Source of the DNA: a virus
Strand: one strand, 5' to 3'
Virus record (IMG/VR): IMGVR_UViG_3300032174_000005
Location: 1-64,000 of that record
DNA length: 64,000 bases
The first letter of the stretch is position 1. Each line of letters opens with the position of its first letter. Position numbers and translations under genes: made by a program. The notes beneath the pieces are model-generated. The model was not told the origin of the DNA. It searched no databases and saw only the letters and a program-made list of their open reading frames with translations. This document shows positions 7,004 to 33,381 of the stretch, in pieces.

Positions 7004-7004
7004 T

Positions 7005-11306: not shown

Positions 11307-12277
11307 AGTTTCTACTCCCGCAGGGCATCGGCGACAGCGTGTGGGCGCTGCATAAAATCCAGGCAATCCGCGACAAGCTCGATCCCGGTGGCCCGATCGA
11401 CATTCATCTCACCTGCTCCCGTCAGGATGATCTCCAATCCCGCGCGGTGGATTTCCTCCGCAGGTTCGATTTCGTCGATTCCGTGGAGATGCAACTTAAC
11501 TACGGCATCCATCGTGAGTATGATGAGAAGCGTCCCCCGTTCACCCCCGGCGGATATTGGGATTACCTCGAAGACGGGATGTATGATTTCAAGGGGGAGA
11601 AATTCTGCGTGCTGATCCCCAACGCGCCCCTCGAACGTGGGATTCGCCTCGAAAACTGGCTCCCACAATACTCCATCAACTGGGACATCTTCTCCCACTT
11701 CCGCGTTTCCCCTGCGGAACTCGCCTACGGTCGCATGGTCCGCTCGAAACTCGGCCCGTTCGCGGTGTTCTACCCCGGCCCGCTGCACGGGAATACCATC
11801 GAAGGCCACAACCGCAACATGCTCTGGAAGCCTGCGGAGTGGATCGACCTCGGGGAACAACTCCACGATAAATATGGCCTGAAAACCGTCGTCGTCGGCG
11901 CGGAATACGACCACGACTACTACACCCACATGCTCGCCCCCCGCATAAACGGTTCCGCCTCCCACTGGATTGACCTGATCGGTCGGACCAGCATCGGAGA
12001 ACTCTTTGCGACCACCTCCCAGTCCTCCCTGCTCATCTCCTATCAAGCTGGCGTGGGAATCATCTCCGCCTATCGCCACGTCCCGACCGCGATGTGGTGG
12101 CGTCCGCGCGGGGATTCTATCTCCACTCACGGATTCCTTTCCTTCGAGGAGGAGATGTCCACTGCGTGGGCACCCCCTGACATTTTGGAACAGGGCACAT
12201 ATCTCCCCTTAATCTACGGGAAACATGGTATAGAGTATATCCTTGAGGAAATTGTCAAGCGAGGATGGGTGAAATGA
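11303..12277 (+). CDS. GT9-type (heptosyltransferase-like) glycosyltransferase
   Basis: A 324-residue protein that starts at GTG 11303. It opens with LLPQGIGDSVWALHKI, the glycine-rich loop of GT-B family 9, and has GPLHGNT and RTSIGELFATTSQSSLLISYQAGV (donor-binding half, residues 240-262), followed by Trp/Arg-rich nucleotide contacts. It closes the sugar cassette. Its stop overlaps the start of an exported tail-fibre-like gene (ATGA). That linkage suggests the cassette acts on virion or surface glycans. Confidence 0.82.
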   Translation: MKFLLPQGIGDSVWALHKIQAIRDKLDPGGPIDIHLTCSRQDDLQSRAVDFLRRFDFVDSVEMQLNYGIHREYDEKRPPFTPGGYWDYLEDGMYDFKGEKFCVLIPNAPLERGIRLENWLPQYSINWDIFSHFRVSPAELAYGRMVRSKLGPFAVFYPGPLHGNTIEGHNRNMLWKPAEWIDLGEQLHDKYGLKTVVVGAEYDHDYYTHMLAPRINGSASHWIDLIGRTSIGELFATTSQSSLLISYQAGVGIISAYRHVPTAMWWRPRGDSISTHGFLSFEEEMSTAWAPPDILEQGTYLPLIYGKHGIEYILEEIVKRGWVK

Positions 12278-15200
12278 ATCTGCGACGGTTGCTGTGGCTG
12301 CTCCCTTTGTTTTTGCTGTCCGCGCTTCCGGCTCATGCCCAATTCCCCAACGCTTACGGCTGGTGCGAGGCGGGCGCGCAGAATGTGATCACCTCCGGCC
12401 TGCAATCCACCACCCTCGTACAAGCGAGCTTCCCCCAATGCACCGTCAGCGTGAGCATCCACGGCGGGGGCACCGCCACTATTTACTCTAACGACACAGG
12501 CACGCCGTTATCCAATCCCTTCACTGCCACCACGAATGGTCAGTGGCAGTTCTTCGCCGCTGTGGGGAATTACGATGTCACGCTTACCTGTTCCGGCGCG
12601 TGCGTTCCCCCGTCCCCATCCCCATTCCCTATTACTTTCAATGAGATAAACGTGGGGATTGGCAGCGGAGGGGGTGGGGGCAGTCCACCTGTCAAGCCCG
12701 CCGTCGCTGATGGCATCCAATATGTCACCCTTGAGGGCCTTGACACCAACGACGGCCTTAGCTGGGGCTCAGCGAAACTCACCTGGACAGGCGCGTGCGA
12801 AGCACTCCCCGGCGGTTCCGCCAGCCCTCCCACTTGCGGCGTGGGGGCGATTCACATCGCCAAGGAAATCCTCGCCAATCCCATATCCGGCGCCGGCATC
12901 TGGATGTTTGGCTCCGCCGACCCTGGCTATGCAGCGGGTGTATCCGGATGGCACCGCTACGGCGGACCCATCAAAACAATCTGCGACGCGACCCTCGGCG
13001 GGGTGACCAACAACGGCTCAGGAACCTGTGTAATCGACGGCGGGTCCACCACAGACAACCTTCACCCAGCCATCTGGCTGAGCGCGATTAACGCGGGGGT
13101 GGAGTTCTACGGCGCGCAAGTTCAATTCCGCGCGGGTGTGAACCTGATGCTGAGTGTGTGTTCCAACGGCACGAATAACGGCTCCTGCGCGGTGCAGAAC
13201 GTGCGATTTGACCGCTTCCAGGCCACGGAGGGGGGATTATCCGCTGGACTCGGGCCTCCCGTGCTGATCGGCGACGGAACCTTCTGGGTATTCTTCAACG
13301 ATTACAATATCTCGGGCAACGCGAATAACTCCCCCACCGCAGACAACGGCGCGGCGGTGTTGATGACCAACAACACCACCCCCAGCGGATTGATCTCCTT
13401 CCACCAAGGCGGGTTCAACACGGGCGGGATTAAATACTACGCGGGGAATGAAGCCACCCTCCTGATCGACGGCGTGACCACTACGGAGAATAACCTAGAG
13501 GCTGTCCTGTGGGTAGCCAGCGGCAACCTCGGCGATGGAAATGTAATTGTCCAGAACGCCGGGGTATCCGATTGCAACACCGTCGTGGCCCACTGCGCGA
13601 TCGTCCGCAACGATGCCCTCGGCGCGGTGCATATCTCCAATATCGCGGGCCCGACAATCGGTTATGTCATCGCGGACGCGGCGGAAAACTCCCGGCTGGT
13701 ATTCCCCGACTCTCTCATTCACTACATCGGCGCGCTGACCTATCCCACCAACGCAGGTTCTTCCGCGCCGATTATCGAAGTCTCCCGCACGCAGGGAAAT
13801 AACCCCCAGAAAATGTTCGGTCCAGCCGTGGTTCCGGGGGCGAATCTCGTGGACATCGGCACGCACACCTGCGCCACCTGCACTGTGACCACCGGAATCA
13901 CCGATCCCACCGTTATCGGCACGGGCGCGATTCAAATCACCGATTCTGCATCCGTCGGAGCACTGTCCTTCACCCTTTCCAGCGCGGGCGGGGCGGTGAC
14001 CAATGACACCTACGTTGCCAGCCTCTGGACGCGCTCGCCGAACAATCTTGGATATAACCGCAGCGTGGCATTCCAGTTTCAGCTCACCGGCGGAAGCGAC
14101 ATCTGCAACGCCTCCACATCCGGATTCGTGCAGCCCAGCCCGTTATCCTCCACGGAATCCGGCTGGACGCATTACATCAGCCTTTGCAAAGTCACCACAT
14201 TCGGCGGCACAACTCCCACATTCAACGTAACCACAGGCAGCGCCATCCCCATGCAGGTGTACGCGCCGATTGTGTTTGTGATGCATGGATATTCCGATGA
14301 TGATGTGTTGAACACGGCCCTGAACATGGGCACATGGGATATCAACTGCCCTACAGGTCAGCTTTGTGTGGAAAGTGGAATCCTCTCCGCGTTCGCGGGG
14401 TCCACGGCATTCTACGGCACGTTAACCCACGCGAACACCGCGAATCGCACCTACACCTTCCCCGACGCCACCGGAAATATCCCCGCATACACAGTATCCC
14501 CCACAAACCTCGATTGCGTGGACTGGTCTGGGGTGCTGGGGCTCCTCGGGGATGTTAGCGGAAAATGCGCCACCTACTCCATAACCCCGACCCCAGGGGA
14601 CTGCGTAACATGGGCGGCAGGACCAAAACTCGGCGATTCCGGGTCCGCGTGCGGTGCTGGCGGCGGCGGCATGAACACCAACATGTCCAACATGGCCAAT
14701 CCCACGCTGATGAATCAAACGCTGACTCCCGCCTCCGCGAATACCATCGCCGTGGGCACCGCGGCGCTCCCCTTCACCAATTTCTTCTTCGGCACGGTGG
14801 CGAATCAGACGATCTCCGGTAACACCGCGAACCTCACCGCAAATCGCGTGGTGAACTGGCCGGATGCAACGTCCTCCCCCGTGCGGAACTGCCCCGCCGT
14901 CGCGAATCAATTCATCTCAGCCATCGCCGTAGCCACCGGCATCTGCACGCAGGCGAATATCTCCGCCTCCTCCACCATGCCCTTCGCCTACGCGGCTGAC
15001 ACAGGTGCGGCGAACGCAGCGGTCGTCACCCTATCCCCCGCGCTGACATCTTACACAACCGGATTGGAGGTGGATTTCCTGCCCACCGCCGCAAACACAC
15101 TCACCAATCCCACGGTGAATGTGAATGGCCTCGGCGCAATCACCATCACGAAATACGGCACGGCAGCGCTTCAGGCGAACGACCTCCTCACCACCGCCAT

Positions 15201-15879
15201 CGCGAAGGTGATCTATGACGGGACGAATTTCCAGCTCCAGAATCCCGCCACGCAATCCTCCACGGTCACTTCATCTTCCGTGAATACTTTTACAAATAAG
15301 ACGATAAATTGTGAATCCACGGGGAATAATTGTAGCGAGCCCGTGCGGATGTACTTCCCCGCTGGCGGATGCAACAACACCACCCCCGGAAATGGCTGGG
15401 ATATCGGCCTTGCCAACGCCCCCACGCCGCAATGCACGGGATCCACCACCCGCCGGGGAGTGCTGCAATTCGCGCGGGGAAATGTCGCCTATATCAACGC
15501 GCATCTGCCGAATGACCTCAACACGGGGGCCAGTCTGGACTTGGAAATTTGCTATACAACAACGGATACCACGAATGGCCATGTGACAAGTTTCAATATC
15601 CAGACGGGATTCAACAGTGTCACAGGGGCAGCAACAGACGATCCCACGCTGAACACGCTCCAAGCGCTGAGCTCCACGATCGGCGCATCCCAGACCTCCG
15701 GCGGGGAGCTATGCAAGCAGCTCACGGGGCTAACCACCACCGGCTGGGCAGCGGATTCCAACTTCGTCCTCGCCATCACAAGGAATAACAGTGGCACGGA
15801 TACAAACACAGACACTGCGGTGAATGTGAAATCCGCCGAGGTAATTCTAGGAGTCACTAAAAATGCCACGAATCGCTAA
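12274..15879 (+). CDS. Very large tail-fibre-like protein with a Sec signal peptide
   Basis: A 1201-residue protein. The start at ATG 12274 is preferred over ATG 12265 because of its ATGA overlap and the GAGG at 12261-12264. Residues 1-23 form a classic signal peptide (RR, then LLWLLPLFLLSAL, cut after AHA). The middle is beta-rich with repeated Asn/Gly/Ser. Near residues 715-735 is an ANRTYTFPDATGNI motif, and about residues 908-990 carry a fibre module (VNVNGLGAITITKYG, then VIYDGTNFQLQNP) known in many phage tail fibres. It is probably a receptor-binding fibre. The export signal is abnormal for a virion protein. Confidence 0.85.
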   Translation: MNLRRLLWLLPLFLLSALPAHAQFPNAYGWCEAGAQNVITSGLQSTTLVQASFPQCTVSVSIHGGGTATIYSNDTGTPLSNPFTATTNGQWQFFAAVGNYDVTLTCSGACVPPSPSPFPITFNEINVGIGSGGGGGSPPVKPAVADGIQYVTLEGLDTNDGLSWGSAKLTWTGACEALPGGSASPPTCGVGAIHIAKEILANPISGAGIWMFGSADPGYAAGVSGWHRYGGPIKTICDATLGGVTNNGSGTCVIDGGSTTDNLHPAIWLSAINAGVEFYGAQVQFRAGVNLMLSVCSNGTNNGSCAVQNVRFDRFQATEGGLSAGLGPPVLIGDGTFWVFFNDYNISGNANNSPTADNGAAVLMTNNTTPSGLISFHQGGFNTGGIKYYAGNEATLLIDGVTTTENNLEAVLWVASGNLGDGNVIVQNAGVSDCNTVVAHCAIVRNDALGAVHISNIAGPTIGYVIADAAENSRLVFPDSLIHYIGALTYPTNAGSSAPIIEVSRTQGNNPQKMFGPAVVPGANLVDIGTHTCATCTVTTGITDPTVIGTGAIQITDSASVGALSFTLSSAGGAVTNDTYVASLWTRSPNNLGYNRSVAFQFQLTGGSDICNASTSGFVQPSPLSSTESGWTHYISLCKVTTFGGTTPTFNVTTGSAIPMQVYAPIVFVMHGYSDDDVLNTALNMGTWDINCPTGQLCVESGILSAFAGSTAFYGTLTHANTANRTYTFPDATGNIPAYTVSPTNLDCVDWSGVLGLLGDVSGKCATYSITPTPGDCVTWAAGPKLGDSGSACGAGGGGMNTNMSNMANPTLMNQTLTPASANTIAVGTAALPFTNFFFGTVANQTISGNTANLTANRVVNWPDATSSPVRNCPAVANQFISAIAVATGICTQANISASSTMPFAYAADTGAANAAVVTLSPALTSYTTGLEVDFLPTAANTLTNPTVNVNGLGAITITKYGTAALQANDLLTTAIAKVIYDGTNFQLQNPATQSSTVTSSSVNTFTNKTINCESTGNNCSEPVRMYFPAGGCNNTTPGNGWDIGLANAPTPQCTGSTTRRGVLQFARGNVAYINAHLPNDLNTGASLDLEICYTTTDTTNGHVTSFNIQTGFNSVTGAATDDPTLNTLQALSSTIGASQTSGGELCKQLTGLTTTGWAADSNFVLAITRNNSGTDTNTDTAVNVKSAEVILGVTKNATNR

Positions 15880-17452
15880 GCTGCTCCTCTTCCTGTTCCT
15901 TGCCTCCCCCGCTGGGGCGACCACACATTACATCTCCAGCAGCACCGGCCTTGACACAAACACCGCCGCGCAGGCGACCTCGAAGACGACCCCCTGGGCA
16001 CATCTCCCCGGCATGGCAAACGCGACCTCGAACGCGGCCTCCTACGTCGCCGCCGCAGGGGATCAATTCATCCTGATGGGATGTGACAGCTGGTACAACG
16101 CCTCCTTCCCCCTCGCCATCACTCACGGCGGCGCATCCGGCAATCCCGTCATCATCACCATCGACCAGACCTGGTTCAATACCACCGCCTGCCCTTCCGG
16201 ATGGAATCGCCCTATTTTCGACGCGCACACCTCCGCCGCATCCTCAACGCCGATGGAAATTAACGGCACCGGCGGACAAGCCACCGGCTGCGTGGGTAAT
16301 GACGGAAATTTTTTCATGGCCTTCCACGCCTCCAACGTCACCGTCAGCTGGATCGAGATGAGGAATCTCTACTGGGCAAACGACGCGCAGAACACCTGCT
16401 ACGGTTCCAACGGCTGGTGGGCGGCGCATAGCGTGGATTTCGTCATCGTCAGCCATTCGTACGAAAGCTCATGGTCAATGCATGCGTATCAAGCCAACAC
16501 CTTCGGAGACGTGGATATTGCCATCGAGGTGGACGGGACTCCCAGCTGCCCGCATTGTTTTGTGGATTACAACGTAGCGGATAACTGCGCCACACACCCC
16601 GGCCCGACCAATCTCCCCGGCGGCGCGATTGACTTCGTGAACATCACCCATTCCATCTTCAAGTGCATGTCCAACGCGATCAAACCAATCTTCCCCGGCG
16701 AAATCGGCTGGAATGAAGTGACAAAAAACGGCAACTCCCCCGATGCCACCGTGCATGAAAACGTGCTGGAAAGCGTGAGTGTCATCAACGGGACGTATTA
16801 CATCCACGACAACCGTTTCCATGACTATTGGGCAGGGGAGGGGCTGCAAATTGGCAACCCCGGCGAAACGGATTACGTCTGGAACAACAGCTGGTACGGG
16901 CTGCTTCAAGTCGGCGCGAACGGCCCGCAGGTGCCGCAATCCGAGACTCCCGTCGCGTTTTACTACTGGAACAACACGATCGTGGACTGGGGAGATTGCG
17001 TCAACGACGCAAATCACGGATACACATGGTCGGGGGCATTTCAATCCCGCAACAACCTATGCATCAATTCCGCCGGGAACGCGGGTTCCGGCTCGCCCAA
17101 TTCCACCCCCGCAGCGGTGATTGGGAATAATCTCGGCATGACAGATTCCGCTGCCACCGCCGCAGGATACACATCCTCCCAGACGCGACCGTTTTCCCCC
17201 ACCCTCGCCACGTCCGCCAGCGTGGGATTCGGGGCGAATCTAACCTCCATCTGGCCAGCGGGATTCCCCACAGTGGACGCATCTCTCATCTGTTCCGAAC
17301 AAACCGTCAGCGGGGTGGTACAGGCGGTATGCACGGGAACTCCCATCGCACGCCCCACCACGGGAGCTTGGGCCTCCGGCGCATTTCAGTTCGCGGGGAA
17401 TCAGCCCGCGCCCAATCCGCCCACTAACTTTCGTGTGGTGAGCATTCAATGA
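15863..17452 (+). CDS. Exported beta-helix-like protein
   Basis: A 529-residue protein with ribosome site TAGGAG (15849-15854). Residues 1-19 form a signal peptide (KLLLFLFLASPAGA). The rest is rich in Asn, Gly, Trp and beta turns (NNSWYGL, NNTIVDWGDC), as in right-handed parallel beta-helix proteins such as pectate-lyase-like tailspikes. It overlaps the fibre gene by 17 nt. It may degrade or bind a surface polysaccharide. No catalytic residues can be assigned. Confidence 0.75.
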   Translation: MPRIAKLLLFLFLASPAGATTHYISSSTGLDTNTAAQATSKTTPWAHLPGMANATSNAASYVAAAGDQFILMGCDSWYNASFPLAITHGGASGNPVIITIDQTWFNTTACPSGWNRPIFDAHTSAASSTPMEINGTGGQATGCVGNDGNFFMAFHASNVTVSWIEMRNLYWANDAQNTCYGSNGWWAAHSVDFVIVSHSYESSWSMHAYQANTFGDVDIAIEVDGTPSCPHCFVDYNVADNCATHPGPTNLPGGAIDFVNITHSIFKCMSNAIKPIFPGEIGWNEVTKNGNSPDATVHENVLESVSVINGTYYIHDNRFHDYWAGEGLQIGNPGETDYVWNNSWYGLLQVGANGPQVPQSETPVAFYYWNNTIVDWGDCVNDANHGYTWSGAFQSRNNLCINSAGNAGSGSPNSTPAAVIGNNLGMTDSAATAAGYTSSQTRPFSPTLATSASVGFGANLTSIWPAGFPTVDASLICSEQTVSGVVQAVCTGTPIARPTTGAWASGAFQFAGNQPAPNPPTNFRVVSIQ

Positions 17453-17739: not shown

Positions 17740-17748
17740 GAGGACAAA

Positions 17749-17970: not shown

Positions 17971-17978
17971 GATTCCAC

Positions 17979-18425
17979 TTGGCCAAACACAAATACAATC
18001 CAGATAGTCCGGGTCGTCAGCGTATCCAAACTCGCTGGTATGGAGTATGGAGAAGCATGAAGTCTCGCTGTTACAATCCAAAGTCTTTTGGGGGGCATGC
18101 AAAACGCTATTATATAGATAAAGGGATAAAGGTGTGTGAACGCTGGCTGAACAGTCCAGAGAATTTTTTGGCGGATATGGGAGAACCAGCTGAAGGATTA
18201 TCCCTTGATCGTATTGATGGCTCCGGAGATTATTCACCCGAAAACTGTCGATGGGCCACTCGTCAGCAGCAGGCAAGGAACCGATGTACCACCAAACTAA
18301 ATCCATCAGCGGTATACTTTATACGCAAAATGCGATGGGATTTTTGTGATCAACGGCAAATTGGGGCTATGTTTGGAGTTGGCCCGGATGTCATTAGTCG
18401 CGTCCTTTCAGGGAAACGCTGGTGA
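17979..18425 (+). CDS. HNH-like phage endonuclease, free-standing
   Basis: A 148-residue protein that starts at TTG 17979. The pattern WRSMKSRCYNP, then GIKVCERW, then SLDRIDGSGDYSPENCRWAT and QQQARN is a common HNH-like module of phage mobile endonucleases. The C-terminal 40 residues look like a helix-turn-helix (QIGAMFGVGPDVISRVL). Codon use is more AT-rich than the flanking genes. A related protein lies at 49052-49543. It is probably a selfish insertion between tail genes. Confidence 0.75.
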   Translation: MAKHKYNPDSPGRQRIQTRWYGVWRSMKSRCYNPKSFGGHAKRYYIDKGIKVCERWLNSPENFLADMGEPAEGLSLDRIDGSGDYSPENCRWATRQQQARNRCTTKLNPSAVYFIRKMRWDFCDQRQIGAMFGVGPDVISRVLSGKRW

Positions 18426-19795
18426 GTGTGTACAATTACACCACGCTTGGCGCGGTTCGGCAGGAGGTCGCAAACCGCCTGTTCGACCCCGCGCAGGTGT
18501 TCTGGTCCGCGCCGGAACTGAATATCTATCTCACGGAAGCTCTGCGGACGTTCAACGCGCTGACGGGATTCTGGCGGGGGGATTTCACATTCAATCTCGT
18601 CCAAGCTCAGGTGTGGTACGACCTCACAACCTTCCCGAACACGCTTCGGCCCGTCACTGTTCCTCTCAGCTATGTCGTCACGCTACTGGATTACATGCTG
18701 CTGGAGCCTGCCAGCACGGTGACAGGCGGGACGTTTGACCCATGGATTGGCTCCCTGCAATTCACCCTGGATGATCTGATTCAAGCGATTGCACGCCGAC
18801 GGGATGAATTACTCTCACTGACTGGCTGCACGCAGACGCAATCCCTCGTTCCTGCGGTGGCGGGGCGGATTCAACTCGCCGATTCCATCATCGACGTGCG
18901 GAGAATGGCCTACATCCCCTCCACGCTGTTCCCCACGCAGCACGCCTCCCCGATGTGGCAGGAGGACACATGGGGCGAGGAATCCTACAATTCAACTTAT
19001 CTCCAAGCCCCCGCAGGCATGCCGTTCGCATATTTACTCTCCACGCAACCACCCATCAGCTTCGACACGGACATCCCCCCTGCATTCGCGGGGAATTACG
19101 ACATCCTGACCACCAGCGCGGGGCCGGCCCTCACTACCTCCACGCCCGCCCTCACGCTGTCCATCCCCGACGACTGGGTACACATCCTCGTGTGGGGAGC
19201 CCTCGCGGATTTACTGTCCCGTGAGTCACTCGCAAAGGACACCCCCCGCGCGGAATACTGTGAGAAACGCTACCGGATGGGGGTTGCCGCCCTCGCCGCC
19301 GCGCCCGCGCTCCTCGCCATGCGCCTCGATAACACGCCATTGCTGATTGATTCCGTGCGCGCGGCGGATCAGTACAACAATAATTGGCAGGCGGAAGCAC
19401 AGGGATCCCCCCGCGCGTGCTACTACGCAGGGATGAATCTCATCGCGTTCCGACCGCCAAGCGCGGGGCCATTTTCCATGACCGCCACTGTGGTACAGAA
19501 CGCCCCATTCCCAGTTGTGGACACCGACCCTTTCCCCTGCTCCCGCGATGATCTGGACGCGATTATCGACTACACGCAGCATCTCGCGGCGTTTAAGCAG
19601 GGCGGACAGGAGTTCTCCCGCACAGGGAATCTGCTGACGCGATTTATGACGCAATGCGGCGTGTACAATGCCAAGCTGGCGGAGATGGGGGAGTACACTT
19701 CCATGCTGGGTGGCCTCGCCTCCCGCGAGCGTGACATGAACCCTGTGATGTCTCCTGATGGTGAGGATGCGCGAGGCGGCGGGGGCGGCGGATGA
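18422..19795 (+). CDS. Putative adaptor/tail connector protein (second of two)
   Basis: A 457-residue protein, GTG start overlapping the HNH gene. The N-terminus (VRQEVANRLFDPAQVFWSAP, then ELNIYLTEALRTFNA) is the helical pattern of phage adaptor proteins that sit between portal and tail. The middle is beta-rich, and the tail ends in a Gly run. It directly precedes the giant tail gene. Its resemblance in pattern to 3956-4951 suggests that both belong to the neck. Confidence 0.6.
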   Translation: MSVYNYTTLGAVRQEVANRLFDPAQVFWSAPELNIYLTEALRTFNALTGFWRGDFTFNLVQAQVWYDLTTFPNTLRPVTVPLSYVVTLLDYMLLEPASTVTGGTFDPWIGSLQFTLDDLIQAIARRRDELLSLTGCTQTQSLVPAVAGRIQLADSIIDVRRMAYIPSTLFPTQHASPMWQEDTWGEESYNSTYLQAPAGMPFAYLLSTQPPISFDTDIPPAFAGNYDILTTSAGPALTTSTPALTLSIPDDWVHILVWGALADLLSRESLAKDTPRAEYCEKRYRMGVAALAAAPALLAMRLDNTPLLIDSVRAADQYNNNWQAEAQGSPRACYYAGMNLIAFRPPSAGPFSMTATVVQNAPFPVVDTDPFPCSRDDLDAIIDYTQHLAAFKQGGQEFSRTGNLLTRFMTQCGVYNAKLAEMGEYTSMLGGLASRERDMNPVMSPDGEDARGGGGGG

Positions 19796-22700
19796 CCAAC
19801 GATTTCAAACGCGATCCCTCCGGATTCCCGTTCAAGTTTGATGGGATGAAAATCTCCGAGCGCGCGGATACCCTCCCGCCGGGGAAATATGCCGTCGCCC
19901 AGAACGTTCGCGCATACTCAGATACCACCGTGCAGACTCGGCCAGGGACATCCACCCTCGCTGAACTGGGCTCTTCCCATTCCGCCTATTCCGCCCTCGA
20001 CATGCGCGCGTATGCATCTCTGGGAGGGGATATCGCCCGCACCCTAATCTTCGACTCCAACTCCAACGTGTGGCTGGATAACGGGAGCCTTGTGGGCACG
20101 CTCGCGGGCGGAGCGAACACCTTCGGCGCATCCCTTATCCCGTTCCGCCCCGGCGCATCCCCTGCCCCGTGGATGTATGTGGCAAATGGATTCGACTACC
20201 AGAAATTCTCCTCCCCGAACACGTTTAATCAGGTGACGCAAGCCAAAGCGGGCATTGCCGAGCCGCAAACCGCCCCCAACGCGGCGATTGGCGGGAATTC
20301 CTCCATTATCACCGCCACGCCATCCTACGTCGCTGCGGGGACGGCGGGGGTGATCTCCGCCGGGAATCGCGTATCGGACACCGCAGGCACGGTGCTACAA
20401 GACCCCACCACGGACTCCCTCTGGAGCGTGCAGGTCGGCACATCCGTGGGATATCAGAAACTCATGTCCGTGACCATCGGATCCACGATATTCATCGTGG
20501 TGGATGTGTTCGCCGCGCTGCCCGCAAATATCACCATTCAAGGGATATATTACTTCTCTGGGAACACGGGACGGTGTGTGGTCGTCCCCGCGAATATCTC
20601 CTTCGAGGGGGAAGGGTCCATCTACGGCCCGACCGCGCTCGCCAGCCTCCGCCGGGGGGCACTCATCAAAATCGGCACGGAAACATGTTACGTCTGGAGC
20701 GTCACGAGCGGCCCGAACAATACAATCTCCATCGAAACCTCCACTGTGTCCAATCATACAACAGCGGAGGTGCTGACCACCGTCCCCGCCATCGCAGTGA
20801 TCCCCGAAGCTCCCATCCAGCAGCAATCCTCCATTGGCTCCCCGTCCATCGCGTCTACCATTTCCCTCGCGGCTAATCCATGGGTGAATCCAAACAACAT
20901 CTTCACGCTGGATGGGAATTTCGCCACCTGCACGATCCCCAATCCGGCGGTGCTGAGTAATTCCGATTACATCGTCGCGACTAATTTCAACTTTGCCATC
21001 CCCGCAGGCGCGGTGATTCTCGGCGTGCTGGCCACGGCGTATGTGAAATCCACTCCAGTTAATGGCGTGTTCACCTTCGGCGTGCGGCTGGTAATCGGCA
21101 ACGCGCTCACGGGCAACACAGAAGGGATATTCACGCCCGTGTGGACGGGAACGGTCGCCCCGGCGTTATGGGGAGGGCAGGCGGATACGTGGGGACTGGC
21201 ACTGACCCCCGCTATCGTGAATTCTGCGGGATTCGGATTCGGGCTGGGAGTGCAGGCCACCGCGATTCAACCCACCGAAGCATTCATAGACTGGATGAAT
21301 TTACAAATATTTTACACCGTCCCCGGCGCGGGTATCACTCCCCCCGCACCCACAAACTCCATCGTAGCTGTGGATTCCACGTATCAGGTGACCACGGGGC
21401 AGGGCACCGCCACTTCCACCAGCATCTCCCCGAATCCGTTTAATCTATCTGGCGTGTCCTTCCAGCCAGATGATTACATCTCCATTGGGATCAATATCGA
21501 CACGCTGGTTAATCTGACTGAGGTGAAATTTCTCCTTGATGTCGGGGATGCGAGCTTCACGCAGAACTTTTTCTATTACACCATCCGGCCATCGGATATC
21601 GCCACGGCCATCGCCAACACATCCACGCAGCTCGCCGCAGCGCAAACAGTGTCCCAGCGATCGCAGATTGATTCCGAGACTGCCGCGATCAACGCACAGG
21701 CGGGGTATTTTGATCTAACCAGCGGCGCGCAACTATCCCCTGGAACTGGCCAATGGACGCAGATTGTATTCCCCATCAGTTCGCTCGTGCGCGTGGGGAA
21801 TGACCAGACGAAGTCCCTTCAAACTCTCACCAAGATACAATTCCTATGGAACGCGAGCGGGACGATCAACGTGGCGACGGACCTCCCCGTGGTGATTGGA
21901 GGATTCCAGCCGGATGTAGGGGATCAGGGGGCACCTTACCTGTATCGCGTGCGGCCACGATCCCGATCTACTGGAGTGGTAGGGAATCCCTCCCCGGCCA
22001 CGCGATACGGCGTCAACCCGCGCAGACATTTCGTGAACGTATACCTTCCCTCCGCGCTGTATGACCCGCAAATCGACACTTGGGATATCTTCCGGTATGG
22101 CGGAACGGTCACGGAATGGCGGTTCATCGGCTCCACCCCTTCCGCCAGCAGCCAGTTCCTCGACAACTTCGACGATGCCGCCGCGCAGGCCGGGGATGCG
22201 CTGGACTTCGACAACTTTGAGCCATGGCCAAGCGTGGATGTCCCGAATATCGGCACCGCATCTATCGTGAACGGGACATTAGCTACAGTGGTCAGCACGG
22301 ACCCGGATATCATCGGCTATCTCCCCGGAACACTGGTTGAACTGGGCGGGTCGAACGCATACACGCTGTGGGCCAGACCCACGCTGATTTCAGGGAACAC
22401 ATACCTTCTGCAATTTGTCGAGAATGCCGGCGCTGGAACAAACATCCCTTACATCATCCAAGAGCCCGCGCTTGCGAGGCAGTTCCTCCCGTTTATGTGG
22501 GGGCCGGATGCGAATGGGACGGTGTTCGCGTGCGGGGATCAGCTGCGGCCCGGATCATTATATTTCTCAAAGAACTACGCGCCGGATTCCGCCCCGGATA
22601 CATATAATCAGGAAATCAGTCAGCCGAGCGAACCGTTACTGGGCGGGGAAACAATCGACGGATTATCCTATGTCGCCTCACCAGAACGCTGGTGGGCACT

Positions 22701-23922
22701 GTACCCGCAGCCGCAAGACACGGCACAACGGTATTCCGTGGTGCAGCAACCGTTCGACCGGGGGCTCGCGGCACCATTCGGCCACTGCACAGACGGGAAA
22801 TCCCTCTTCTGGGTGGCGAAGGATAGCATTCAGTCCTCATCTCAGGGGAATCTCACAGGGGATATGTATAAATTGTTCCCGCATGAAGGGATCGCCGGGG
22901 AGAATCACACCTACGGCGGGATTACCATCTTCGCGCCGGACTACACTCGCGCGAACACCTTCCGTCTGACCTATTCCCTCGGATACTTATACTTCATCTA
23001 TCAGGATTCCACGAGCACCTATCGCATGCTGACCCTCGACATCCGACGTGGCGCATGGTGCGTGGACCAGTATCCCACCCCCGCCACCGCAGCTTATCAC
23101 GTGGAGCAGGAGCCGCAGTCCGACTCAAAGGTGCTCCTCTTGGCGTTCAGTCTAATTGTGGGTGGACTGCCCCCCGCGCACTCCATCCTCCTCGCGAAGC
23201 AGCAGGCGCTATCCAACGATTACAACTCCACCCCTATCTCCTGTGCCCTCGCGACGAATGAATTCGACGGCGGGGACATCCGCGCGCCGAAGCAATGGGG
23301 GGATTTCTTCGTGGATTGCCTGCCCAGCAGCGCGGACGTGGCAACCCCCGGTCTCACCGTCACTCCAGTATCCATCGGCGCGGCAGTGGCACCTGCAACC
23401 ATCATCCCCACCTCTCCCACGCGGGTCCGCACTCCAGTCAGTGTTGGCGGGGTGGTGATCAGCGATTTTATGGGGATGCTGGCCACGTGGCTGGATGATT
23501 TCACAACGCAAATCGTGCCGACGAAATTGTACTCCTGGCAACCCAGCTATGACATCCAGCCGGTTCGCGCGATCGCATGGAGCACTTTCGGCACCAGCTA
23601 CGGGATTGAAGGGTATATGCATGTGCCATGGGTAGGGATTGCTTATGTTGCGCTCGCGCCGGTGCAACTTACTTGTGTGTGCTACGACGGGCAGTCTCCC
23701 GCGCAGATTTTCCTACCCGCAACTGGAGGATCGCTGGCGAAAGCACTGTTCCGCCTGTCCGCCAACAAGGGCCAGCTATACACATTTTCCATGTCCAGCA
23801 CCCTGCCGTTTCAGATCTTCTCGAATGATTGTGATATTTACGTGGGCGCGTGGGGGAGGCAGGATAACTATCTCACTGTCCAGAGGTTCGGAGGCGAAGA
23901 TGTCGAGCCATCCCCAATCTAG
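19792..23922 (+). CDS. Giant tail protein, possibly nozzle/stopper-like
   Basis: A 1376-residue protein, ATGA overlap with the connector gene. The N-terminus (KFDGMKISERADTLPPGKYA, then VAQNVRAYSDTTVQTRPGT) matches the start seen in podovirus tail nozzle or hub proteins, which list 'N-R' contacts after a PPG loop. The rest is beta-rich with no transmembrane segment or signal peptide. It is the largest gene in the window and probably forms the tail tube tip. The family assignment is inference. Confidence 0.6.
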   Translation: MTNDFKRDPSGFPFKFDGMKISERADTLPPGKYAVAQNVRAYSDTTVQTRPGTSTLAELGSSHSAYSALDMRAYASLGGDIARTLIFDSNSNVWLDNGSLVGTLAGGANTFGASLIPFRPGASPAPWMYVANGFDYQKFSSPNTFNQVTQAKAGIAEPQTAPNAAIGGNSSIITATPSYVAAGTAGVISAGNRVSDTAGTVLQDPTTDSLWSVQVGTSVGYQKLMSVTIGSTIFIVVDVFAALPANITIQGIYYFSGNTGRCVVVPANISFEGEGSIYGPTALASLRRGALIKIGTETCYVWSVTSGPNNTISIETSTVSNHTTAEVLTTVPAIAVIPEAPIQQQSSIGSPSIASTISLAANPWVNPNNIFTLDGNFATCTIPNPAVLSNSDYIVATNFNFAIPAGAVILGVLATAYVKSTPVNGVFTFGVRLVIGNALTGNTEGIFTPVWTGTVAPALWGGQADTWGLALTPAIVNSAGFGFGLGVQATAIQPTEAFIDWMNLQIFYTVPGAGITPPAPTNSIVAVDSTYQVTTGQGTATSTSISPNPFNLSGVSFQPDDYISIGINIDTLVNLTEVKFLLDVGDASFTQNFFYYTIRPSDIATAIANTSTQLAAAQTVSQRSQIDSETAAINAQAGYFDLTSGAQLSPGTGQWTQIVFPISSLVRVGNDQTKSLQTLTKIQFLWNASGTINVATDLPVVIGGFQPDVGDQGAPYLYRVRPRSRSTGVVGNPSPATRYGVNPRRHFVNVYLPSALYDPQIDTWDIFRYGGTVTEWRFIGSTPSASSQFLDNFDDAAAQAGDALDFDNFEPWPSVDVPNIGTASIVNGTLATVVSTDPDIIGYLPGTLVELGGSNAYTLWARPTLISGNTYLLQFVENAGAGTNIPYIIQEPALARQFLPFMWGPDANGTVFACGDQLRPGSLYFSKNYAPDSAPDTYNQEISQPSEPLLGGETIDGLSYVASPERWWALYPQPQDTAQRYSVVQQPFDRGLAAPFGHCTDGKSLFWVAKDSIQSSSQGNLTGDMYKLFPHEGIAGENHTYGGITIFAPDYTRANTFRLTYSLGYLYFIYQDSTSTYRMLTLDIRRGAWCVDQYPTPATAAYHVEQEPQSDSKVLLLAFSLIVGGLPPAHSILLAKQQALSNDYNSTPISCALATNEFDGGDIRAPKQWGDFFVDCLPSSADVATPGLTVTPVSIGAAVAPATIIPTSPTRVRTPVSVGGVVISDFMGMLATWLDDFTTQIVPTKLYSWQPSYDIQPVRAIAWSTFGTSYGIEGYMHVPWVGIAYVALAPVQLTCVCYDGQSPAQIFLPATGGSLAKALFRLSANKGQLYTFSMSSTLPFQIFSNDCDIYVGAWGRQDNYLTVQRFGGEDVEPSPI

Positions 23923-24205: not shown

Positions 24206-24216
24206 GAGTGTGAGAG

Positions 24217-24651
24217 ATGGCAAGCGTGATGCAAGACAAACAAGGTCCGATCTGGCCACTAGGGCAGATCGTCGTCACCTCCCCTGGGACGCCCGTCAAC
24301 ATCATGTCCCTCGTGGATTCCACGAACCGCGATGCGCCGGAAACGGCCAATCCCTCCGCTGCGGGAGTCCCCGGCGCGGAATACACAAACCGCGCGCAGC
24401 AGATACTATTCCAAGCATTCAAAGGCTCCCCTGCGGTGAACAACACGGGGAACATTTATATTATTAAAAAGGGCGGCACGGGGACGCAGAACCGCTCGGA
24501 CACTGGCGCGATCGTGGTGATCCTCGCGCCGGGGCAGACCTTCTCCCTCGGCAGCGCGGCGCTGAATCGAAACGTGTTTAACGCATACGAGTATTTCATC
24601 GACGCAGACAACGCGAACGACTGCGCCCAAGTCACGCTTATCATTCAGTGA
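24217..24651 (+). CDS. Small beta-rich structural protein
   Basis: A 144-residue protein with ribosome site TAGGAGTG just upstream. It alternates hydrophobic and polar residues with Gly/Asn turns and ends in a hydrophobic strand (DCAQVTLIIQ). No signal peptide. Its place between tail genes suggests a virion part such as a tail decoration or plug. Confidence 0.6.
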   Translation: MASVMQDKQGPIWPLGQIVVTSPGTPVNIMSLVDSTNRDAPETANPSAAGVPGAEYTNRAQQILFQAFKGSPAVNNTGNIYIIKKGGTGTQNRSDTGAIVVILAPGQTFSLGSAALNRNVFNAYEYFIDADNANDCAQVTLIIQ

Positions 24652-24657
24652 GGGATT

Positions 24658-25740
24658 ATGAAACGCATATTACTTATCATCCCGATGATGTTGGTAGCCG
24701 GGGCTTTATGGGGACAATCCAACATAAACGGAGGCGGAGGCAGCGGGACGGGATCGGGCACGGTATCCGGCCAAGCGAATAATGTAATCCCCAAGGGCAC
24801 GACGGCGACGACCATCACCCAACAATCCTCCATCACGGATAACGGAACCACCGTCAGCGTCACCGAGCCCATCACCACCACCGGCAGCGTCAGCACGGGA
24901 AGCGGCTGCACTCCCGCAGGCTCCACCGCCACGGGTGGGTTGTGTGGAACGGAAGCCACCAGCACAGGATGGACGCCCACCGCTGGATTCGACTACATGC
25001 GCGCGGATTCGACCCAGCATACTTTTCTGTGCTCACTGAACGGCGCGGCGGAAGTGTTATGCGGAGGGGCGAATTTTCCTCTCACCGTATCGGGCACCGT
25101 CACCTCCGGCGGAATGCCGTACTTCAATTCCACCACGCAGGAATCCTCCTCTGGGATAATGAACGCGAATATTCTGATTAAAGGTGGCGGCGCGGGGGCT
25201 GCTCCCACAAACTCCAGCATCACAGACAACGGGACGACGGTAAGCACGTCAGAGAATCTGGTAACCACTGGAGCGGTTTCCACTGGCACCTCCCCTCCCA
25301 CCTGCACGATCGGCACCGCTGGCGCACATTGCTTTGGAGAAGGAACGGCTCCAACGGGCGCGGCTTCTGTGGATGCCCTCTACGGGGATGCTACCGCCCA
25401 TCAGCTCAAAATGATCAACAACAACGGCACGGCGGATATCGTCGGGGACGCTATCGTGCAGTTCTGCGGGGCGACCTCAGGCGCGTCCCAAGCCTGCGTG
25501 AAGACTCGCGAAATCAATCCCTTCATCATATTTGGGGACGTGGCGCTGAACACCGCCACCTCGCAGTCCATCACCTCCCTGCCATTCACCGCCGCCGCTG
25601 ACTACTCCTGCACGGGGAGCGACCTCACCACCGCAGCGGGGGTTGTAACATTCAACACCTACGCCGCAGCGTCCGTGACCATCGCGGAAACGGGCGGCGT
25701 CAACACGGATCATCTGAGGTATATATGCATCGGCTTCTAA
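24658..25740 (+). CDS. Exported repetitive fibre-like protein
   Basis: A 360-residue protein. Residues 1-19 are a signal peptide (KRILLIIPMMLVAGALWG, then QS). Two copies of a repeat unit (SSITDNGTTVSVTEPITTTG and a later SSITDNGTTVSTSENLVTTG) support a repeated fibre fold. It is Thr/Gly/Ser-rich. Third of the exported tail-region proteins. Confidence 0.75.
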   Translation: MKRILLIIPMMLVAGALWGQSNINGGGGSGTGSGTVSGQANNVIPKGTTATTITQQSSITDNGTTVSVTEPITTTGSVSTGSGCTPAGSTATGGLCGTEATSTGWTPTAGFDYMRADSTQHTFLCSLNGAAEVLCGGANFPLTVSGTVTSGGMPYFNSTTQESSSGIMNANILIKGGGAGAAPTNSSITDNGTTVSTSENLVTTGAVSTGTSPPTCTIGTAGAHCFGEGTAPTGAASVDALYGDATAHQLKMINNNGTADIVGDAIVQFCGATSGASQACVKTREINPFIIFGDVALNTATSQSITSLPFTAAADYSCTGSDLTTAAGVVTFNTYAAASVTIAETGGVNTDHLRYICIGF

Positions 25741-26495
25741 AGCGCATCCTTCCACTCGCGGGATTGCTGCTATGCGCCGTTCCTTCAGAAGCGCAATGGA
25801 CGAAAATTCAATCTCCAACTCCTAACACCACCCTTGCGACCAAGACGGTCACTTCTACTGGCGCAGGGCACCTTTTAATTGTAATGGTGAATGGAGCTAG
25901 TGGCGGAGCTACCACGCACAATACGCCAACCACGACCGGAACAGCGCAGACTTGGGTAACGTTGTGTTCTCAATGTCAGGACGGCTCTCACGGAGTCAAC
26001 GCTGGAATTTTCTATACCTGCAATTCTGCTGCGGGAACCACGGGCATCAATGCCACCGATTCAGCATCCGATGCCAACATCGCAATTACTTTCTTGGAAT
26101 ATTCGGGGAACGCTACCTCTTCCTGTCACGATAAGGGAACGACTCTTCAGGACGCCGGGTCATCAAGCAACTGGACCTCCGCATCCATCACACCGACAGC
26201 CGGGGCGCTGGTTACTGTTTTTGGCTATCAGGGAACGACAGGAGGAACCACATATACCGCAACGGCCAGCGGGTATGCGATTGAATCTCAGGCAAACTTT
26301 GCATCTCTTGGTGGAGCTCTTTTCTTCGCTGACAACTCCACAGCTTCAGGCGCGACGAGCGGCGCGGGAGCCATTGGAACGACTTCGGCCTATCAATACA
26401 CAAATATAGATTCCTGGCTGGCTGGCGCTGCGGGTGCGGCTGCCAGCAAAATTGCCGGTCCATCTACGGTAGCGGGTCCAACAAAAACAGACTAA
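25725..26495 (+). CDS. Exported beta-sandwich-like protein
   Basis: A 256-residue protein with a signal peptide at 1-23 (LLKRILPLAGLLLCAVPSEA, then QW). The body is rich in Thr, Gly and Ala with the pattern of a lectin or adhesin beta-sandwich (TSTGAGHLLIVMVNGASGG), and a low-complexity tail. It overlaps the neighbouring genes by 16 nt and 1 nt. No enzyme motif is visible. Confidence 0.7.
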   Translation: MHRLLKRILPLAGLLLCAVPSEAQWTKIQSPTPNTTLATKTVTSTGAGHLLIVMVNGASGGATTHNTPTTTGTAQTWVTLCSQCQDGSHGVNAGIFYTCNSAAGTTGINATDSASDANIAITFLEYSGNATSSCHDKGTTLQDAGSSSNWTSASITPTAGALVTVFGYQGTTGGTTYTATASGYAIESQANFASLGGALFFADNSTASGATSGAGAIGTTSAYQYTNIDSWLAGAAGAAASKIAGPSTVAGPTKTD

Positions 26496-28081
26496 TGCGG
26501 ATATTCATTCTAATCGCGCTCATTGGATTGTTCGCCTTCTGTGTGGTTCCCGCACACGGGCAGGGATATACCGCCCGTACCGATCTGACGAATCAGCCTT
26601 ACCCTGGCACGATTCCTTGCCCCTCTTCAGGGGGATGTTCTGGGGGAGGCAACGCTTCGGGACAAGGCTACTGCTTCACGCCAACCGATTTCAACATCCT
26701 GACATGCAGGCTGACCGATAATAGCGCCGGAGGCAGCCAGCACAGCTACGGCGCGGATTGTGGCGGCTCTGCGGAAATTAACATGTTCAGTTCTGATGAC
26801 ACCATGACGTTTGCTTGTACAGGGGGAAGCGTTCCAATTGTCATCAATTTGCCCGCCTCTTTTGCGAATGGCGCAAATTCCATTACCACGCGCTATCCAG
26901 GGCAGGGTCCAAACGGCGATGGAATGCTTGGAGGGTGCGCGGCCGGAGCAACCTTCATCACCACCACTCCCGAATTCAGTTTCACTCAGCCGAAGATTGC
27001 CTATGTGGAGAGTTTCAACGCCTCTGGCAATCAATCTATTTGCCAATACGATTTCACAAGCGCAACCACCATGCCCACCTCAGGCAACGGAAAAGCATCT
27101 GTCCTGATCGACCTTTCCACATGCGCTGGAGCGCTGGCAGGCGTCGGCTATGGCACTTACGTGGATGATGTAAACGTAAGTTCAGACGATCAGACGTTCG
27201 CTGTTCTTGGCAGCACGACAGCAGGGCAGGGCTCAACCGGGGCGGTCTGGGTTGTGGTCTGGAATCGAACCAACGGCTGTCGCGTATGGAATACAGCCAC
27301 CGGCGCAGTGACCGGCGCAATGGGCGCTCTCGCTTATCCGACCGGCTCCATCAATATCACGGACCGTTTTTATCTTCATAATGTTCGCCTAAGCAAGAAT
27401 GGGCATGTCGTTAAGGTTACGCAGAATACTTGCACAGCTTCACCTGGCGGCTGCACGGTCAACACAAGCACTTATATCTGGGACATCACCGGATTAACCG
27501 TAAATCGCATTATTAACGATGGCACGCTTGGCTGTGGTCACAACACTATCGGCCAGACTTCCACCATGAATCTTTGCAGCGGATTTCAGTTCCGGCCATT
27601 CAGCAGTAACGATCAATCGGGAACGGACGTTCTTGCAGGACACTATCCGGGAGCCTTTTCCGAAGACGGCCACGCAGGATTCAGCAATGGAAATTCCGCT
27701 GACACATTGCCTGTGCTTTGGAGCCTCTACAACGGAACTTTTGCGCCAGCCGAAGCATGGGACAACGAAATTATAGGCGTGCGACTCGATGGAAGCGGTG
27801 TGGCCTACCGATTCGCGCATAGCTACATCACCGGACAGGCTGTTGATTTTGGGGCACAGTTTGGAATTGGCGCGATTTCCGCAGATGGAAAATATTTTAT
27901 CTGGAGTACGGACTGGGATGGAATGCTCGGCACTTCCGCTCCTGCCAATTCCTGCACGATTGGCTCGAATTGCAGGGATGATTTGTTTCTTGCCGTCTTG
28001 CCTGTTTCAGCAAGTCCAGGGACTACAGGCTTCATTCTCCCCTCCGGCGTGACGCTGGCGAAAGGAGCATCGGTACAATGA
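26495..28081 (+). CDS. Exported large beta-rich protein
   Basis: A 528-residue protein with a signal peptide (RIFILIALIGLFAFCVVPAHG, cut before QG). It is Cys- and Gly-rich with repeated blades of the sort seen in beta-propellers (YLHNVRLSKNGHVVKVTQN; AISADGKYFIWSTDWDG). It could be a glycan-binding or host-derived surface protein. The family is not assigned. Confidence 0.7.
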   Translation: MRIFILIALIGLFAFCVVPAHGQGYTARTDLTNQPYPGTIPCPSSGGCSGGGNASGQGYCFTPTDFNILTCRLTDNSAGGSQHSYGADCGGSAEINMFSSDDTMTFACTGGSVPIVINLPASFANGANSITTRYPGQGPNGDGMLGGCAAGATFITTTPEFSFTQPKIAYVESFNASGNQSICQYDFTSATTMPTSGNGKASVLIDLSTCAGALAGVGYGTYVDDVNVSSDDQTFAVLGSTTAGQGSTGAVWVVVWNRTNGCRVWNTATGAVTGAMGALAYPTGSINITDRFYLHNVRLSKNGHVVKVTQNTCTASPGGCTVNTSTYIWDITGLTVNRIINDGTLGCGHNTIGQTSTMNLCSGFQFRPFSSNDQSGTDVLAGHYPGAFSEDGHAGFSNGNSADTLPVLWSLYNGTFAPAEAWDNEIIGVRLDGSGVAYRFAHSYITGQAVDFGAQFGIGAISADGKYFIWSTDWDGMLGTSAPANSCTIGSNCRDDLFLAVLPVSASPGTTGFILPSGVTLAKGASVQ

Positions 28082-28458
28082 GCGAAGTGAATTATAGGTG
28101 GATTGATGGGCCTACTGCGACGGATGAGGAATGGAATCGGTTCGAGGATATACTGGTCGCGCGCGGGTGGATGTCGTTGAATCGTCCCACCTCGCGTGTG
28201 CTGGTCGCAGAGGATGAACACAATGAGTTGCTGGGATTTATTGTGATGCAGCTGGTTCCGCATACGGAGCCGTTGTGGGTCAGGCCGTCACAACGCGGGA
28301 CGGAAGTCGCGAATGAACTCGCGGATCGTATGCTGAGTTTTATGATTGAGATTCAAGCCAGAGGATGGATGCTAGTTGCGTCGAATGATATTATCGCGAA
28401 GATGGCAGAGGCGAGGGGAATGGTACGGGAGACACAGCCTGTGTATGTGGCGAAGTAA
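28078..28458 (+). CDS. GNAT-like acetyltransferase-fold protein
   Basis: A 126-residue protein, ATGA overlap. The order beta (VLVAEDEHNELLGFIVMQLV), loop with V-R-P-S-Q-R-G, helix (VANELADRMLSFMIEIQARG) and strand fits a GNAT fold. The R/Q-x-x-G-x-A/G acetyl-CoA loop is visible as QRGTEVA. Similar proteins occur in podovirus virion operons. Substrate unknown. Confidence 0.65.
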   Translation: MSEVNYRWIDGPTATDEEWNRFEDILVARGWMSLNRPTSRVLVAEDEHNELLGFIVMQLVPHTEPLWVRPSQRGTEVANELADRMLSFMIEIQARGWMLVASNDIIAKMAEARGMVRETQPVYVAK

Positions 28459-28467
28459 GGAGGCCGA

Positions 28468-29040: not shown

Positions 29041-29055
29041 GAACAGGAGAATTAA

Positions 29056-31778: not shown

Positions 31779-32761
31779 TCCTCACAGCGTCCACCCTCAC
31801 GGATTATCAAAGTTGTCCCCGCAAGACGTTATTATCCACCGATTGGGAAATATTGAAGTTGAGGCCGAAGCAGATGCTGGATTCGTGTCTCCGGCGGGGG
31901 ATTCTCGCGATCACACAGGGCAAGGACGCAGGGGAGGTGGCGGAGGGAATGAAAGCGGAATTCCTGCAAGCTGCGGCGAATCCTGGGATGGACACCCCAC
32001 GCGGGGCGAAGCCGTATGAGATAGCCAAGGATCACGTGGCGATGATTCAGACGATTCTGCGTGCGGCGAAGCGGATGGAACTGCCGGTGCTGGCGGAATC
32101 CCCGACAGTCCAGTTATCCTCCACGGTGGAGTATCAGCCACTCGCGTTTACGGATGGGGTGATGCTGCACAGGATCATCACAGTGGATAGATGGGATGAC
32201 GCGGCACTGTCTCGCGAGTTGCATGGATGGTACACAATCGGCGATCAAGCGGTGACAGGACTCCCCCTCACGCTGCATGTGATTGAAACCGGTCAGACGC
32301 GGAATGGCCGTCGCGCGAGTCCATGGGCAAGGGGCTGGAGGCATCCCACCCTGCGGAACGCACATCGTATCCGCTTCCTACATAAAGATGGCACGGGATT
32401 CAAAGGCTGGACGCCCGTGTGGCTCGCGGATGAGCGAGAACTGGACGCGGAAGAATGGGTGGAAGCGATGTGGAAGGAGGGCGCGGTGCAGGCGGCGTGG
32501 AAGGATATCGCGGTTGCGCCGCCCACGTTATCCCAACGCAGCGGGACATTGGGGCAGCTTCGGCTGGAGGCCCATCGGATGAGTGTTCTGATTTCGGAAC
32601 GCCAGTCCAATCCGTGGTCCGCCATCCCCATGCATCGTGGGAGTTGCGACGGGATGGTGCCCTGCGGGTGGCAGGAAGCATGTTATCGTGAAAGTAACGA
32701 TGTCCAAGAATCCGGATTGTATCGCGGGAGAGATCAGGGTACTCTACAGGTAATTATGTAG
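31775..32761 (+). CDS. RecB/Cas4-like fold protein with an unusual active site
   Basis: A 328-residue protein, GTG start overlapping the previous stop. It begins with SYL-type sequence (STLTDYQSCPRKTLLS), and the C-terminus has CDGMVPCGWQEAC. One early Cys and three late Cys is the iron-sulfur pattern of Cas4/AddB-type nucleases. The expected D-x(n)-E-x-K core is not obvious. The segment around residues 165-190 has D, E and R but no acid-x-Lys triplet. It may be a nuclease-derived structural or regulatory protein. It stops at tandem TAG TAG. Confidence 0.55.
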   Translation: MILTASTLTDYQSCPRKTLLSTDWEILKLRPKQMLDSCLRRGILAITQGKDAGEVAEGMKAEFLQAAANPGMDTPRGAKPYEIAKDHVAMIQTILRAAKRMELPVLAESPTVQLSSTVEYQPLAFTDGVMLHRIITVDRWDDAALSRELHGWYTIGDQAVTGLPLTLHVIETGQTRNGRRASPWARGWRHPTLRNAHRIRFLHKDGTGFKGWTPVWLADERELDAEEWVEAMWKEGAVQAAWKDIAVAPPTLSQRSGTLGQLRLEAHRMSVLISERQSNPWSAIPMHRGSCDGMVPCGWQEACYRESNDVQESGLYRGRDQGTLQVIM

Positions 32762-32784
32762 TAGGAAACGATAAAGGAGAGACG

Positions 32785-33381
32785 ATGAGACGACTGCTGG
32801 CCCTGCCCCTGCTGTTACTGTTCAGCCTTCCTGTGTTTGCCCAATCCCATTCCGCGAGCCTGTCATGGACCCTCAGCACCTCCACGGCGGTGGTGAGCCA
32901 GAATGTGTATCGGAGTTCCGATGCGGGGGTGACATTTACGAAACTCGCTGCGGGGACGGGCCTCGCGGCAACAATCACCACCTTCACCGATTCCACAGCG
33001 GCTGCGGGTGCGACATACCAGTATTACGTCACGGCTGTGTGCCCGACAACTGGGGCCTGCACGGGGGAATCCATCCCATCCAATAAAGTGACAGCGGTGA
33101 TCCCTGGGAACACTCCGCCGCCCCCAACCGGTCTTTCCATCACCAACATCGCGATCAACAACGTGAACGGGCAGGATCGCTTGCAGGTGGATTGGACCGC
33201 GCCCGCAAACTCCGCTACCGCATTCACCATCTTCGGCGGGCAGGGGCAGGTGCTGAAGCAGGGTAGCCAGACCACCGCGAATGGCGTGTACTCGTATGCG
33301 ATTCTCATCCCCGTGCAGAACGGTGTCGTGACTATCTGTGATTCCAAGGGATGCACGAGCCAGAACTTTCAGGGGATTTAA
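32785..33381 (+). CDS. Exported fibronectin type III-like protein
   Basis: A 198-residue protein with ribosome site AAAGGAG. Signal peptide 1-20 (RRLLALPLLLLFSLPVFA, then QS). Residues 22-105 resemble a fibronectin III domain (SLSWTLSTSTAVVSQNVYRS, then YQYYVTAV). A Pro-rich linker leads to a second beta domain. Sixth of the exported tail-region proteins. It probably binds a cell or polymer surface. Confidence 0.75.
   Translation: MRRLLALPLLLLFSLPVFAQSHSASLSWTLSTSTAVVSQNVYRSSDAGVTFTKLAAGTGLAATITTFTDSTAAAGATYQYYVTAVCPTTGACTGESIPSNKVTAVIPGNTPPPPTGLSITNIAINNVNGQDRLQVDWTAPANSATAFTIFGGQGQVLKQGSQTTANGVYSYAILIPVQNGVVTICDSKGCTSQNFQGI

Follow-up and report, generated by a model that had tools for sequence, protein, structure and literature searches.

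Six genes in the tail region of a viral DNA stretch of 64,000 nucleotides (positions 1 to 64,000 of IMG/VR record IMGVR_UViG_3300032174_000005; the window below, most of one 64,742-base virus record) begin with predicted Sec signal peptides. These genes may encode receptor-binding fibres or spikes with disulphide bonds that leave the cytoplasm, lose the signal peptide, fold in the periplasm and attach to virions when the cell lyses, a reading in which our confidence is evenly balanced. Somewhat more tentatively, we propose that a class of tailed phages routes its receptor-binding fibres through Sec, with disulphides formed in the periplasm and the virion completed beyond the cytoplasm as the cell lyses—a two-compartment assembly. 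The sequences point this way through the signal peptides, a fibre domain behind one of them, ordinary fibre homologues without signal peptides, covariation of signal peptide and cysteines, and conservation of the trait across the virus group.

Signal peptides were called by a written rule on the n-, h- and c-regions, demanding a positive n-region, a hydrophobic core of at least eight residues and small residues at −3 and −1. A sequence-only reading of the window had assigned Sec signal peptides to the genes starting at 12274, 15863, 24658, 25725, 26495 and 32785 (Table 1); the coordinates and N-termini are as it described, and all six pass the rule with scores of 5.8–7.5, against none of the 23 other plausible window genes. 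Shuffled N-termini pass in 0.75% of cases for the six genes and in 0.24% for the 23 others. Because of this separation and a shuffled rate below 1%, the six signal peptides are, in sequence terms, real and beyond chance. The sole further open reading frame of the window scoring above 4.5 encodes a 66-aa membrane protein at 56687. The predicted signal peptides and cut sites are MNLRRLLWLLPLFLLSALPAHA^QF for 12274, MPRIAKLLLFLFLASPAGA^TT for 15863, MKRILLIIPMMLVAGALWG^QS for 24658, MHRLLKRILPLAGLLLCAVPSEA^QW for 25725, MRIFILIALIGLFAFCVVPAHG^QG for 26495 and MRRLLALPLLLLFSLPVFA^QS for 32785; cleavage before Gln, which the earlier reading took to be the prevailing pattern, is possible in five of the six.

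Judged by its genes, the window belongs to a podovirus-like virus related to Tunturi_1 and Tunturi_2, two phages of Acidobacteriota. Searched against 50,697 phage records, its head protein matches only this pair (31% identity at 99% coverage), its large structural protein at 19792 is matched by the same two phages over 86% of its length at 38% identity, and these homologous genes stand in the gene order of Tunturi_1, which groups the window with Tunturi_1-like podoviruses. Tunturi_1, whose corresponding block also holds fibres with signal peptides, is podovirus-like and was isolated on Tunturiibacter psychrotolerans X5P2 (PMC11924767); the window differs from Tunturi_1/2 in its distal domains and by having a transferase-like cassette. 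From this kinship we infer an Acidobacteriota host for the window. Relatives were collected by searching with the 19792 structural protein, and L-numbers below denote the loci compared.

Directly after the signal peptide of 12274 lies a fibre N-terminal domain (N-domain) of ~100 residues, which also opens gp12 of Tunturi_1 (40% identity) and is found in 42 IMG/VR loci; a repeat scan using N-domain rows without signal peptides returned a nearly identical contig set. The domain is the N-terminus of annotated tail proteins without signal peptides in Escherichia, Klebsiella and Serratia phages (L004–L007 among the matches), and proteins of the same kind in L011 and L042 match PHROG tail fibres at ~1e-31. 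Through the N-domain, 12274 is thus homologous to annotated tail fibres, and the fibre module VNVNGLGAITITKYG singled out by the earlier reading is indeed present in it. The L011 homologue occupies the slot directly after the tail gene and starts 'MQAYSNFAQQGD...' where the signal peptide would be cut; the mature form of a protein with a signal peptide and the form made without one would therefore share much the same N-terminus.

An AF2 model of the 12274 N-domain, built from 42 sequences, reaches pLDDT 82. Compared with BFVD it gives 11 matches with E <1e-3, the best from 3e-6, among them pectate-lyase, tail-spike and EPS-depolymerase proteins of phages. In the PDB, VIA ranks the tail complex of podophage Pan3 first (Z 8.2), and further matches include Pam1 (Z 7.4), the P22 tailspike head-binding domain (6.7–6.8) and the Sf6 gp8:gp14N complex (6.5); bacterial CNA-B and transthyretin-like domains appear in the same list with Z similar to that of P22. 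As modelled, the N-domain fits a virion-docking domain, though the fit is no proof of docking. The P22 head-binding Pfam model gives no match to 12274 up to E 0.1, and we therefore do not file the protein as a P22-like member. For residues 123–559 of 12274, a model made with no alignment has a pLDDT of 34 and is unusable.

The cysteines of the N-domain follow the signal peptide. Among 60 N-domain rows, 45 with a signal peptide and 15 without (the calls for L051, L064, L065 and the second L061 copy made or confirmed by eye), a Cys pair (in the window, GWC and FPxC) is complete in 44 of the 45 rows with a signal peptide versus 0 of the 15 lacking it. Seven changes of signal-peptide state are needed on the tree; well-supported branches force three of them, each with a matching shift of the Cys pair. 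Folding in an oxidising compartment after export would predict that the pair is gained and lost together with the signal peptide. Among conserved open reading frames of at least 150 aa in 30 loci, median Cys content per 100 aa is 1.99 with a signal peptide (n=30) versus 0.84 without (n=194; p 2e-7), a comparison of related sequences that is to be taken as indicative. The cut sites of 42 scored N-domain homologues carry Ala (34), Gly (6) or Ser (2) at −1, Ala at −3 in 27 and Gln at +1 in 18, although the rule itself favours such sites.

Signal peptides are a feature of nearly the whole virus group. In Tunturi_1 they are found on gp12, gp13, gp14 (annotated as tail spike), gp16 and gp17, a block that corresponds to the window's. 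Nearly all related loci have genes with signal peptides flanking the adaptor and structural genes, mostly large, fibre-sized and Cys-rich; L069, which has the N-domain, holds four consecutively. The exception is L029, both of whose N-domain copies (5740–7989 and around 9330) lack the signal peptide and the Cys pair, with no signal-peptide fibre seen in the block. It is the only relative seen in this state, a natural switch. The L016 locus is incomplete and offers too little sequence for judging such genes. In L051, near 3900, a signal peptide and N-domain lie within a longer open frame that starts with another signal peptide, the product of a fusion of two fibre genes, a lost stop or a sequencing error.

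Tail genes checked in the unrelated phages Tunturi_3 (from the same strain, X5P2), Tunturi_4 and Tunturi_5 (same host genus) carry no signal peptides; two small non-tail proteins of Tunturi_4 score as signal peptides or membrane segments. Because of this absence, the trait is, by sequence comparison, one of the virus lineage and not of the host, and host codon or sequence style is ruled out as its cause. The virus group with signal-peptide fibres is widespread in soil and appears to infect Acidobacteriota.

The earlier reading had listed fibres attached outside the inner membrane among its explanations, and it is this one that the evidence favours, in its simplest form as docking at lysis. Its suggestion of early export and display on the host may also hold. 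The fibres and spikes would be made as pre-proteins and exported by the host Sec system; signal peptidase would remove the signal peptide, and the mature proteins would fold, trimerise and form disulphides within the periplasm. Lysis would then mix periplasmic fibres with cytoplasmic virions, and the N-domain, by now the mature N-terminus, would dock on the tail.

Several observations weigh against such a route. The association of signal peptide and Cys pair (Fisher p 3e-13) ignores kinship; well-supported independent switches number only three (sign test p 0.25), so that significance is unreachable from them alone. One row, L075, has a signal peptide and no Cys pair, and some enterobacterial fibres without signal peptides are Cys-rich beyond the N-domain. 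Docking at lysis would be deduced from a fold resemblance with Z mostly <8 that is common to CNA-B and transthyretin-like domains. The five window genes other than 12274 have no N-domain and no tie to a fibre family, their place in the virion being suggested by neighbourhood only. The Tunturi paper (PMC11924767) reports no virion proteomics, and the presence of these proteins in virions is a prediction from sequence.

Export signals do not prove a return to the virion. The proteins could instead stay off the virion and act as secreted adhesins, depolymerases or receptor blockers; coating the infected cell or what surrounds it, they would prevent superinfection or help progeny escape from slime and debris. 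We regard this as unlikely, though it is the main rival. Several sequence-variable genes per genome would suit such a role, and small blockers of superinfection, the T5 lipoprotein Llp for one, are indeed exported by phages (PMC9586334). A free blocker, however, would not need the N-domain, which sits at the virion end of other tail fibres, and versions without signal peptides fill the same genomic slot.

That the genes were captured from Acidobacteriota surface proteins, their signal peptides being relics or serving lysogeny or a surface role, seems to us improbable. It would account for the choice-of-anchor D domains in signal-peptide genes of L012 and L014, for the distal CHB_HEX_C and Fn3_assoc domains of Tunturi_1 gp17, and for the A-x-A^Q cut sites, which resemble those of the host. 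Yet the N-domain is present in only one of 297 Acidobacteriota genomes, where it adjoins a terminase-like gene; 15863, 25725 and 26495 find no match in these genomes (a search with no positive control), and signal peptides are retained across a wide virus group. The suggestion of captured host adhesins made in the sequence-only reading is not supported for 12274; it may apply to distal domains in some of the relatives, choice-of-anchor D being present in two. Since such distal domains are common in secreted bacterial proteins, mosaic capture of fibre tips is likely on sequence grounds. The single bacterial occurrence, in Granulicella sp. S156 (L078, 5929–8376), is a signal-peptide fibre with the N-domain; the locus points to a prophage remnant and hints at Acidobacteriota hosts.

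A hydrophobic N-terminus is by itself no proof of cutting, and left uncut it could act as an anchor that draws tails to the inner membrane as they assemble, or form a membrane-piercing tip. We give this little credence: the cut-site residues of the 42 scored homologues match the consensus that the rule favours, the Cys pair directly behind the signal peptide speaks for an oxidising place, and relatives without signal peptides start near the cut site. Equally doubtful is a Milano-like case, in which disulphides would arise only once the virion is released, with the signal peptide serving another role and the Cys pair no evidence of export, because the pairing of the two would be left unexplained. 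The tail of Milano, an Agrobacterium phage, is reported to have an extensive disulphide network (PMC10811340).

Table 1. Features of the window, with the observations on which each assignment is based.
Position	Strand	Feature	Basis or remarks
1556..2704	+	Major head protein	31% identical to Tunturi_1/2 counterpart
12274..15879	+	Tail fibre/spike with predicted signal peptide, 1201 aa, 30 Cys	Signal peptide residues 1-22; fibre N-domain about residues 23-125; long distal part with VNVNGLGAITITKYG
12274..12339	+	Predicted Sec signal peptide of 12274, MNLRRLLWLLPLFLLSALPAHA, cut before Gln	Signal-peptide rule; kept in 45 N-domain rows
12340..12690	+	Fibre N-domain of 12274 with Cys pair GWC...FPQC	AF2 model; BFVD/PDB matches; covariation with signal peptide
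15863..17452	+	Signal-peptide protein, 529 aa, 12 Cys, no family match	Signal-peptide rule
18422..19795	+	SU10-type adaptor (neck) protein, no signal peptide	PF24175, E 9e-11
19792..23922	+	Large conserved virion structural protein, no signal peptide	Query for gathering relatives
24217..24651	+	Conserved 144-aa protein, no signal peptide	Directly upstream of the late signal-peptide genes; Tunturi_1 positional counterpart annotated tail fibre
24658..25740	+	Fibre-like signal-peptide protein, 360 aa, 10 Cys	Signal-peptide rule; module common to other signal-peptide proteins
25725..26495	+	Signal-peptide protein, 256 aa	Signal-peptide rule
26495..28081	+	Signal-peptide protein, 528 aa, 17 Cys	Signal-peptide rule; weak likeness to L025 and L027 proteins
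32785..33381	+	Signal-peptide protein, 198 aa, Fn3-like	Signal-peptide rule; weak relatives in L008 and L009

What links the five genes other than 12274 to the fibre group is their signal peptide, Cys content and position. For 24658 there is also a module shared with signal-peptide proteins of L019 (at 7203; 46% over 150 aa) and with Tunturi_1 gp13 (64% over 66 aa). The 15863 protein is likely a beta-helix, judged by eye; tblastn against viral contigs and a further scan found no relatives. Pfam, PHROG and NCBIfam searches with all six genes gave only weak matches, all to 32785 (Fn3, a virion structural family and the pectate lyase PelI).

Other parts of the window deserve mention. A cassette resembling sugar and methyl transferases (5015–12277) lies directly upstream of the first signal-peptide fibre and may modify virion or host glycans; parts of it occupy the same place in five relatives (L009, L018, L020, L024 and L032). 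Between the signal-peptide genes and the ejection-type proteins lies a small conserved protein (28078–28458), whose same-place gene in Tunturi_1 (gp34) is annotated as an acetyltransferase. Two tandem tRNA genes with CUA anticodons on the minus strand (35475–35549 and 35611–35685; 'Pyl' by ARAGORN, Rfam tRNA 52.6 and 51.3 bits) are possible amber suppressors. TAG ends the head protein gene, 19792 and others, and read-through would add at most about 50 codons. With many structural genes ending in TAG and so little gained by read-through, amber recoding is ruled out as a factor for the signal peptides.

The accepted view is that assembly of a tailed-phage virion takes place entirely in the cytoplasm; if docking outside it were shown, this route would belong to a new category. 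We found no report of Sec signal peptides on tailed-phage fibres, and no description of such a route for tailed phages, in the literature searched, which left subscription papers mostly outside and is not proof of absence. The text of PMC11924767 does not mention signal peptides, the available portion of a report on rumen Bacteroides phages with one or two signal peptides draws no tie to fibres, and Benler 2018 (PMC6199706) read the absence of signal peptides as support for the phage origin of variable proteins. Were fibres exported first, part of assembly would follow membrane breach, disulphides could stabilise fibres for soil, and searches that drop signal-peptide proteins as host genes would overlook receptor-binding proteins. 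The export idea can be put to direct test with Tunturi_1 and Tunturi_3, which share a host strain.

Known systems share single elements of the proposed route. T5 Llp and Cor (PMC9586334) are likewise phage proteins sent to the envelope, and the T5 gene adjoins its receptor-binding gene, but they are small lipoproteins, unlike the large Cys-rich fibres with a virion-binding domain considered here. None of the six window proteins has a lipobox: with A-x-A type cut sites lacking Cys at +1 and lengths of 198–1201 aa, they fall outside the Llp/Cor kind. The enterobacterial tail fibres of Escherichia phages ep3 and Alux-21, Klebsiella phage KA2-1 and Serratia phage MQ-4 have the N-domain at the N-terminus, but neither a signal peptide nor the Cys pair in it. 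The P22 tailspike, gp9, has its head-binding domain at the virion end, like the N-domain of 12274, and the two domains show a modest fold resemblance (2vky, Z 6.8; 1lkt, Z 6.7) at a level that CNA-B and transthyretin-like folds also reach, whereas gp9 is a cytoplasmic protein with no signal peptide and the window protein has both a signal peptide and the Cys pair. The P22 tailspike joins the virion in the last step, and does so in extracts too; docking after membrane breach would therefore require no new chemistry. Virion proteins made with Sec signal peptides are familiar from filamentous phages, whose pIII and pVIII carry them. Inoviruses, however, assemble in the membrane and are extruded, whereas tailed phages build their virions in the cytoplasm and leave by lysis.
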